DNA of 64,000 nt from positions 1 through 64,000 of the forward strand of contig NZ_FQYM01000016.1 of assembly GCF_900141705.1 (NCBI RefSeq). Reading direction: 5' to 3'. Positions 27,828-38,060 of the stretch are shown here, piece by piece. The notes beneath the pieces are model-generated. The model did no database searches. It saw only the letters and a program-made list of their open reading frames with translations, and had not been told where the DNA came from. Position 1 is the first letter of the stretch. Each line of letters opens with the position of its first letter. The translations under genes and the position numbers were made by a program. This stretch comes from Fibrobacter sp. UWP2. Lineage in GTDB: Bacteria > Fibrobacterota > Fibrobacteria > Fibrobacterales > Fibrobacteraceae.

Positions 27828-27866
27828 AAAAAAAAGCCCCCGGCTCTTGCGAGACCGAGGACTTTT
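27828..27866 (-). terminator. Strong terminator beyond the gdhA 3' repeat array
   Basis: On the minus strand an extended stem (about 13 bp with wobbles and one bulge) closes on a GCAA tetraloop and is followed by eight or more T residues. It lies downstream of gdhA and its repeat array, so the array is probably transcribed as the gdhA 3' region. The rest of 27662-27900 shows no gene. Confidence 0.7.
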
Positions 27867-27900: not shown

Positions 27901-28193
27901 GTCTGTGAGCAAAAAGGGCGACCAGTATTAACTGGTCGTCCTTTGCGAGAGCGAGCGCAGACCGGAGAAGTAGTCCCCGAATCTAGCGCGAGCGGTCGTA
28001 TCCGTGAGCAACAAACGCCTCGTATTAACGAGGCGTGGTCGCGAGAGAATCCGCCTACCGGAGAATTCTCTCATGAATCTAGCGGATTCGGTCGTATCCG
28101 TGAGCAAAAAGCGACCGGTATTAACCGGTCGCGTTTGCGAGAGCGAGGGCCAGCCCTGTACTTGTTGTACAGATTCTAGCCCGAGCGGTCGTA
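27901..28193 (-). repeat. Array of three ~96-99 bp structured repeat units after the gdhA stop codon
   Basis: Read on the minus strand, each unit begins GACCG (GACCGCTCG in two of three) and ends GCTCAC(G/A)GA. Each contains a short variable hairpin, a CTCTCGC or CTCGCTCTCGC box, and a second hairpin with a constant TTAAT-type loop (ATTA on the plus strand). Second-hairpin cores: 27916-27941, 28015-28036 and 28111-28132. Stem bases differ between units but stay paired (CGACCAGT/ACTGGTCG, CGCCTCGT/ACGAGGCG, CGACCGGT/ACCGGTCG). The first unit starts about three bases after the gdhA TAA. The same family occurs at 37577-38060. Confidence 0.85.
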
Positions 28194-29546
<1,353 letters not shown>

Positions 29547-37576: not shown

Positions 37577-38060
37577 GACCGCTCGCTCGGTACGTGAGGT
37601 GGCAAGACCTCCGTTTTCTCACGAGCTCCCACCTAAAGGTGGCCATGTCCACTAAGCAGCAAGCTGCTAAGTGGCCAAAGGTCGCATACGCCCTTGAAAG
37701 ACCGCTCGCTCGGTACGTGAGGTGGTAAGACCTCCGTTTTCTCACGAGCTCCCACCTAAAGGTGGCCATGTCCACTAAGCAGCAAGCTGCTAAGTGGCCA
37801 AAGGTCGCATACGCCCTTGAAAGACCGCTCGCTCGGTACGTGAGGTGGTAAGACCTCCGTTTTCTCACGAGCTCTCGCCTACATGGCTCGTTAATACGAG
37901 CCATTCCGGCTCACGGAAGACCGCTCGCTCGGTACGTGAGGTGGCAAGACCTCCGTTTTCTCACGAGCTCCCACCTAAAGGTGGCCATGTCCACTAAGCA
38001 GCAAGCTGCTAAGTGGCCAAAGGTCGCATACGCCCTTGAAAGACCGCTCGCTCGGTACGT
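37577..38060 (+). repeat. Tandem structured repeat array after the carboxyltransferase stop codon
   Basis: Units begin GACCGCTCGCTCGG at 37577, 37700, 37823, 37919 and 38042. Units 1, 2 and 4 are 123 bp and identical apart from one C/T difference in unit 2. Unit 3 is 96 bp and has a different second half with the hairpin ATGGCTCGT-TAAT-ACGAGCCAT (37883-37904), ending GCTCACGGA. The last copy is truncated after 19 bases. Within units GAGGT/ACCTC, CGTGAG/CTCACG, CCACC/GGTGG and CCACT-AGCAGC/GCTGCT-AGTGG can pair. The array starts immediately after TAA 37574-37576 and stops before a terminator. Head, hairpin loop and tail match the gdhA array. Confidence 0.88.

Follow-up and report, generated by a model that had tools for sequence, protein, structure and literature searches.

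A structured interspersed repeat of Fibrobacter, in tandem behind gdhA and dispersed, often at stop codons

Why should three hairpin-forming units follow one another directly behind a glutamate dehydrogenase gene? The gene, gdhA, lies on the minus strand (28194..29543) of a 64,000-nt stretch of the genome of Fibrobacter sp. UWP2, which was analyzed as a whole (the window), and its product combines the domains ELFV_dehydrog and ELFV_dehydrog_N. The initial annotation had described the region behind it as three tandem units with one hairpin each, beginning about three nucleotides past the stop codon and running to a strong terminator. Direct reading of the sequence bears out the three units and both borders of the array: 3 nt separate the stop codon TAA (28194-28196) from the nearest unit, which faces it with its GACCG end, and downstream of the array, on the minus strand at ~27828-27866, a hairpin followed by a T run resembles a terminator.

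Read on the plus strand, the array consists of U1, farthest from gdhA (27905..27997), U2 (28004..28093) and U3, which adjoins the stop (28100..28190). The units are about 97 nt long and spaced 99 and 96 nt apart, and the array contains the direct-repeat families D1-D4. Each unit has the order GTGA, HP1, GAGAG, HP2, CGGTC, in which HP1, set on a short lower stem, pairs over 9 bp and closes with the loop ATTA, while HP2 has an outer stem of 8 bp enclosing a variable inner hairpin. The hairpin noticed initially is HP1, and it stands; but a unit comprises two hairpins and not one, and the second (for example GAATCCGC/GCGGATTC) covaries as well. The HP1 loop is ATTA in all three units (TAAT on the gdhA strand), while the stems read CGACCAGT/ACTGGTCG, ACGCCTCGT/ACGAGGCGT and GCGACCGGT/ACCGGTCGC; their arms are located at 27919-27926/27931-27938 in U1, 28015-28023/28028-28036 in U2 and 28111-28119/28124-28132 in U3. 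The outer stem of HP2 is Watson-Crick paired throughout in U2 (GAATCCGC at 28047-28054 with GCGGATTC at 28082-28089) and carries a tandem G.A motif in U3 (GCGAGGGC at 28143-28150 with GCCCGAGC at 28179-28186). Compared with dinucleotide shuffles, the fold of U3 (-44.1 kcal/mol) has a z-score of -6.0, and that of all three units together, on the gdhA strand, one of -9.1. With such values, and with dozens of recurrences in the genome, the three-unit array is far from chance.

Is it the structure that has been conserved? Among 25 copies from the same genome, both sides have changed in 17 of 22 pairs. Aligning 138 distinct copies, drawn from 23 Fibrobacter genomes, raises this to 19 of 22 pairs with double compensating changes in 626 cells, compared to a mean of 147 in shuffled and at most 107 in slid controls, although these counts lean upwards, since the model itself guided the alignment and the copies are related. 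Even so, 56 different arm sequences in the 138 copies leave the HP1 stem 98.9% paired, which is a strong signal. The blocks GTGAGC, GAGAG and CGGTC, by comparison, are near-invariant. The compensating changes described initially thus exceed both kinds of control, and they are also found between gdhA-locus units of different species: a clean double substitution from C-G to G-C in HP1 (G004 versus G020), and another in HP2, where GAATCCGC/GCGGATTC stands against GAATCGGC/GCCGATTC in G010.

Two neighboring HP2 positions form G.A/A.G, a tandem sheared motif, in 92 of the 138 copies, and in the remaining ones, with few exceptions, the motif is replaced as a block by two Watson-Crick pairs. As the opposite strand would turn this motif into two pyrimidine mismatches, the plus (GTGAGC) strand, opposite to the gdhA mRNA, is more likely to carry the functional fold. 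On this strand G-T pairs outnumber A-C pairs by 64 to 18, with 39 of the 64 at a single pair and a base composition that also favors G-T. Folding energy was rejected as a guide to the strand, given that the two differ by ~1 kcal/mol, less than the effect of composition alone.

The covariance-model search that the initial annotation had proposed led to many further copies, of which half lie immediately behind a stop codon. While a DNA search of the genome found 31 places, the model (R1) gave 70 hits with E<=1, 58 of them with E<=0.001, which were grouped into 41 loci. Across 121 genomes of the phylum, one per species and mostly drafts, the family occurs in 48 of 49 genomes of the genus, in 5 of 6 belonging to one sister genus, and in none of the other 66. 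A pattern scan of GTDB genomes returned Fibrobacter as carriers (F. succinogenes and other Fibrobacter MAGs) along with scattered single hits elsewhere, which are presumably due to chance; a scan of IMG/VR with two exact patterns yielded no viral carriers. Rfam matched a tRNA and nothing else across the whole window, with nothing above the gathering score for the array region among matches listed to E<=10, and no earlier description of the repeat was found in the literature searched, most subscription papers lying outside its scope. The first reading had rightly seen structured units with compensating changes; what it had left out is the dispersal, the sites occupied in one genome and empty in another, the insertions into open reading frames and a tRNA, and the turnover between species. 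From these comparisons the array appears to be no gdhA-specific device, but a set of copies of a dispersed, apparently movable or once movable repeat.

The window contains a second array (37577..38060, minus strand) directly past the TAA of a plus-strand gene. Here, units with a normal HP1 alternate with units that carry another hairpin module in its place (CCTTTGGCCACTTAGC...GGCCACCTTTAGGTGGGAG), and modules akin to it are present in L025, L029, L091 and L104. Many arrays end in partial copies, which keep the GACCG end and are cut variably at ~10-54 nt (L006, L007, L018, L059, L088, L107).

The placement of the units is anything but uniform. In 53 of 101 arrays, taken from the set that gave the 138 copies, a stop codon, counted from mechanically called open reading frames of at least 100 codons, lies 0-9 nt before the GACCG end, in 46 of these within 0-3 nt, whereas the opposite (CTCAC) end has a stop codon within 12 nt in 3 of 101 (binomial p=8e-13, for arrays that are related and hence not all independent). 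The stop is TAA in 47 of the 53. A separate strong terminator follows within 250 nt downstream in 31 of the 53, compared to 3 of 109 shuffled flanks; with a stop codon before them and a terminator after them, stop-adjacent arrays would mostly be situated in 3' UTRs. The same arrangement, between stop and terminator, makes it plausible that the gdhA array is part of the gdhA mRNA, and the initial annotation's reading to this effect can be regarded as fair. Terminators like that at 27828-27866 are also present 3' of gdhA orthologs that have no units. HP1 itself is followed on the gene-sense strand by at least four T in 8 nt in 114 of 138 copies (3 of 138 on the other strand); it passes a stricter test for strong terminators in 6 of the 53 stop-adjacent arrays, and in some distant species the HP1 behind gdhA resembles a full terminator. 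An A/T-rich target motif before GACCG was seen and rejected: the A/T run is missing from an empty site in an acyl-CoA dehydrogenase gene and may therefore come with the insertion.

That gene offers a view of occupied and empty sites. In our genome it contains an in-frame unit that adds 93 nt, or 31 codons, and it is uninterrupted at 12 loci of Fibrobacter relatives. This insertion recurs in G068, a genome of a sister genus, in a region of 96.2% identity over 2.56 kb, as close as copies within the genus, which suggests that gene and insert were transferred between genera or else represent a shared old retention. The unit common to the two genera is located at L058 1501-1588 and in L289. Another open reading frame with a unit, in L302 (G066, from a sister genus), resembles by eye a pyruvate:ferredoxin oxidoreductase, and its unit runs in the direction opposite to the acyl-CoA dehydrogenase case. 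Another view comes from a triplicated tRNA-Pro region (L030 1470-2151, G000:C4), a tandem repeat in which one of three copies has a unit in its anticodon loop and the other two have none; ARAGORN finds one intact tRNA-Pro there. The HP1 loop of this unit is lengthened by a long extra hairpin segment, and a similar extension is seen in L008. At both places the junctions show 3-4 extra nt and no clean target-site duplication, and the 1-4 nt ahead of GACCG are often common to tandem copies. Since the genomes with empty sites belong to other species, exact junctions are blurred and gain is sometimes indistinguishable from loss.

The 3' flank of gdhA varies in the same manner. Next to the three units of our genome, G002 has a single one identical to U3, G010 and G004 have different units, G020 has one unit farther downstream, and G003, G005, G008 and G023 have none. 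Other orthologous stop sites likewise carry units in some species and lack them in others, several of them being occupied in multiple species. Taken as comparisons of sequence, these differences indicate movement of the units, with loss possible case by case. Other short hairpin repeats (GGGAAGGCTTCGCCCTCCC; GCAATGCCTTGCTTAACGCAAGGC) occupy the space between gdhA stop and terminator in L115, L116, L118, L122 and L125, and the genus Fibrobacter seems to harbor several small repeat families.

How old, then, is the unit next to gdhA? Its HP1 half is 98-100% identical among G000, G002, G004 and G010, while identity in the first half falls to 58-68% when G000 is compared with G010 or G004. As this HP1 sequence, though seldom met in the family, is common to four species, the stop-adjacent position probably predates several species splits, and HP2 probably evolves faster than HP1 at this locus. 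The long retention of HP1 and the recurrence of units at the same stops exceed what a purely neutral mobile element needs. Homogenization of HP2 interiors within genomes is weakly supported genome-wide, with an excess of 0.034 versus 0.012 that was reached in 2 of 300 label permutations.

We consider it probable that the three units of the array are copies, in tandem, of an interspersed repeat which is structured, non-autonomous and specific to this lineage, and which sits in 3' UTRs. The spread would proceed by a transposition-like process that recognizes a folded single strand, and such recognition would account for a structure that is kept while its sequence changes. Copies landing between a stop codon and a terminator would be tolerated, possibly even kept, and would thereby join the 3' UTR of the gene. 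The enzyme would be another than a resident Y1/RAYT or RVT_1 protein, or one since lost, as our genome contains neither a Y1/RAYT transposase (PF01797) nor a reverse transcriptase (RVT_1, PF00078). PF01797 was found in 4 of 16 Fibrobacter genomes searched and does not track copy number, and PF00078 in 2 of 12. On these grounds both Y1/RAYT as mobilizer and RVT_1-dependent retrotransposition as route were rejected. An autonomous parent, with the halves of a unit flanking a gene, was not noticed among the hits in our genome.

The main rival assigns the units a role for the host: as elements of the 3' UTR, their hairpins would block 3' exonucleases, or HP1 with its T-rich stretch would terminate partially, and selection would maintain the sense orientation after the stops of housekeeping genes. 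This is possible rather than probable, but it would account more directly for the orientation bias. The contrast of 53 to 3 at stop codons, the T-rich stretch on the gene-sense strand, the terminator-like HP1 behind gdhA in distant species, the orthologous stops that carry units in several species and the conservation of the gdhA HP1 across four of them can all be read in its favor. It fits less well that so few HP1s pass the strong-terminator test where separate terminators downstream are common, that many gdhA orthologs do without units, that units sit inside open reading frames and a tRNA, and that the tandem G.A motif favors the strand opposite to the message. A bolder proposal is a mobile element that targets stop codons in one orientation by an enzyme beyond Y1/RAYT or reverse transcriptase, with copies kept as portable 3'-UTR modules whose HP1 and HP2 evolve separately. 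We regard it as doubtful.

Could the palindromes be maintained by mutation alone, through template switching or repair that copies arm onto arm, tandem slippage and gene conversion, without any selection on structure? HP1 invites the thought: it forms a nearly perfect palindrome around a loop of 4 nt, and its arms come in 56 distinct sequences, often changed in blocks; the partial copies at array ends would fit as well. HP2, in contrast, has arms that covary across a variable interior of ~27 nt, with the G.A mismatch amid the covarying pairs left uncorrected in two thirds of the copies (92/138), and neither placement nor orientation would be explained; we therefore deem this account improbable. 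Less probable still is a family of trans-acting small RNAs or ligand-binding regulatory RNAs. The conserved two-domain fold with its near-invariant blocks would suit such a role, but Rfam holds no match, the copies follow unrelated genes or lie in reading frames and in one tRNA copy, they form head-to-tail multi-copy arrays, and no promoter-like site was found around the gdhA array.

What emerges is a repeat family of considerable size, confined to one lineage and covarying strongly in structure, in organisms that are major degraders of cellulose in the rumen. For small bacterial repeats, it is unusual to be placed at stop codons in a fixed orientation, and this raises the question of targeted insertion versus a selected 3'-UTR function. 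The in-frame copies within enzymes show that elements of this kind also supply proteins with peptide segments.

Among known systems, integron attC sites are folded sites directly behind stop codons that preserve structure more than sequence. The Fibrobacter units share both traits; compared by arrangement alone, however, they are single or head-to-tail with no gene cassettes between them, which makes an attC identity unlikely. The units lack the terminal inverted repeats of a classical MITE, as GTGAGC at one end is no inverted copy of GCGGTC at the other. In-frame insertion of palindromic repeats into coding genes is known from the Rickettsia palindromic elements (RPE), and the acyl-CoA dehydrogenase unit and that in the open reading frame of G066 are reminiscent of it. 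As far as descriptions can be compared, in-frame copies are the exception in Fibrobacter, where most copies are intergenic and half adjoin stops, and the units are therefore not filed as RPE. REP/BIME elements are extragenic palindromes scattered through genomes, often clustered, for the most part downstream of genes and in some cases within them (PMC3733652), all of which holds for the Fibrobacter units. REPs, however, measure 20-40 bp with a GTAG/CGTC tag, and the GTAG REPs are tied to RAYT genes (PMC3733652). At ~97 nt, with two hairpins, ends GTGAGC/GCGGTC and no Y1 transposase in our genome, the units depart from REPs in size, tag and enzyme, and membership was rejected. The repeat bcr1 (listed in PMC2267715) is specific to the Bacillus cereus group; it measures ~150 nt, conserves its secondary structure and is reported to have traits of a mobile element. 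It resembles the Fibrobacter repeat, by description and not by sequence, in being restricted to a lineage and conserved in structure, but belongs to another lineage, and the marked trait of the Fibrobacter units is their adjacency to stop codons in a fixed orientation. We thus file the Fibrobacter repeat among the small structured interspersed repeats otherwise known from bacteria, with bcr1 and RPE, as described, appearing nearest in style.
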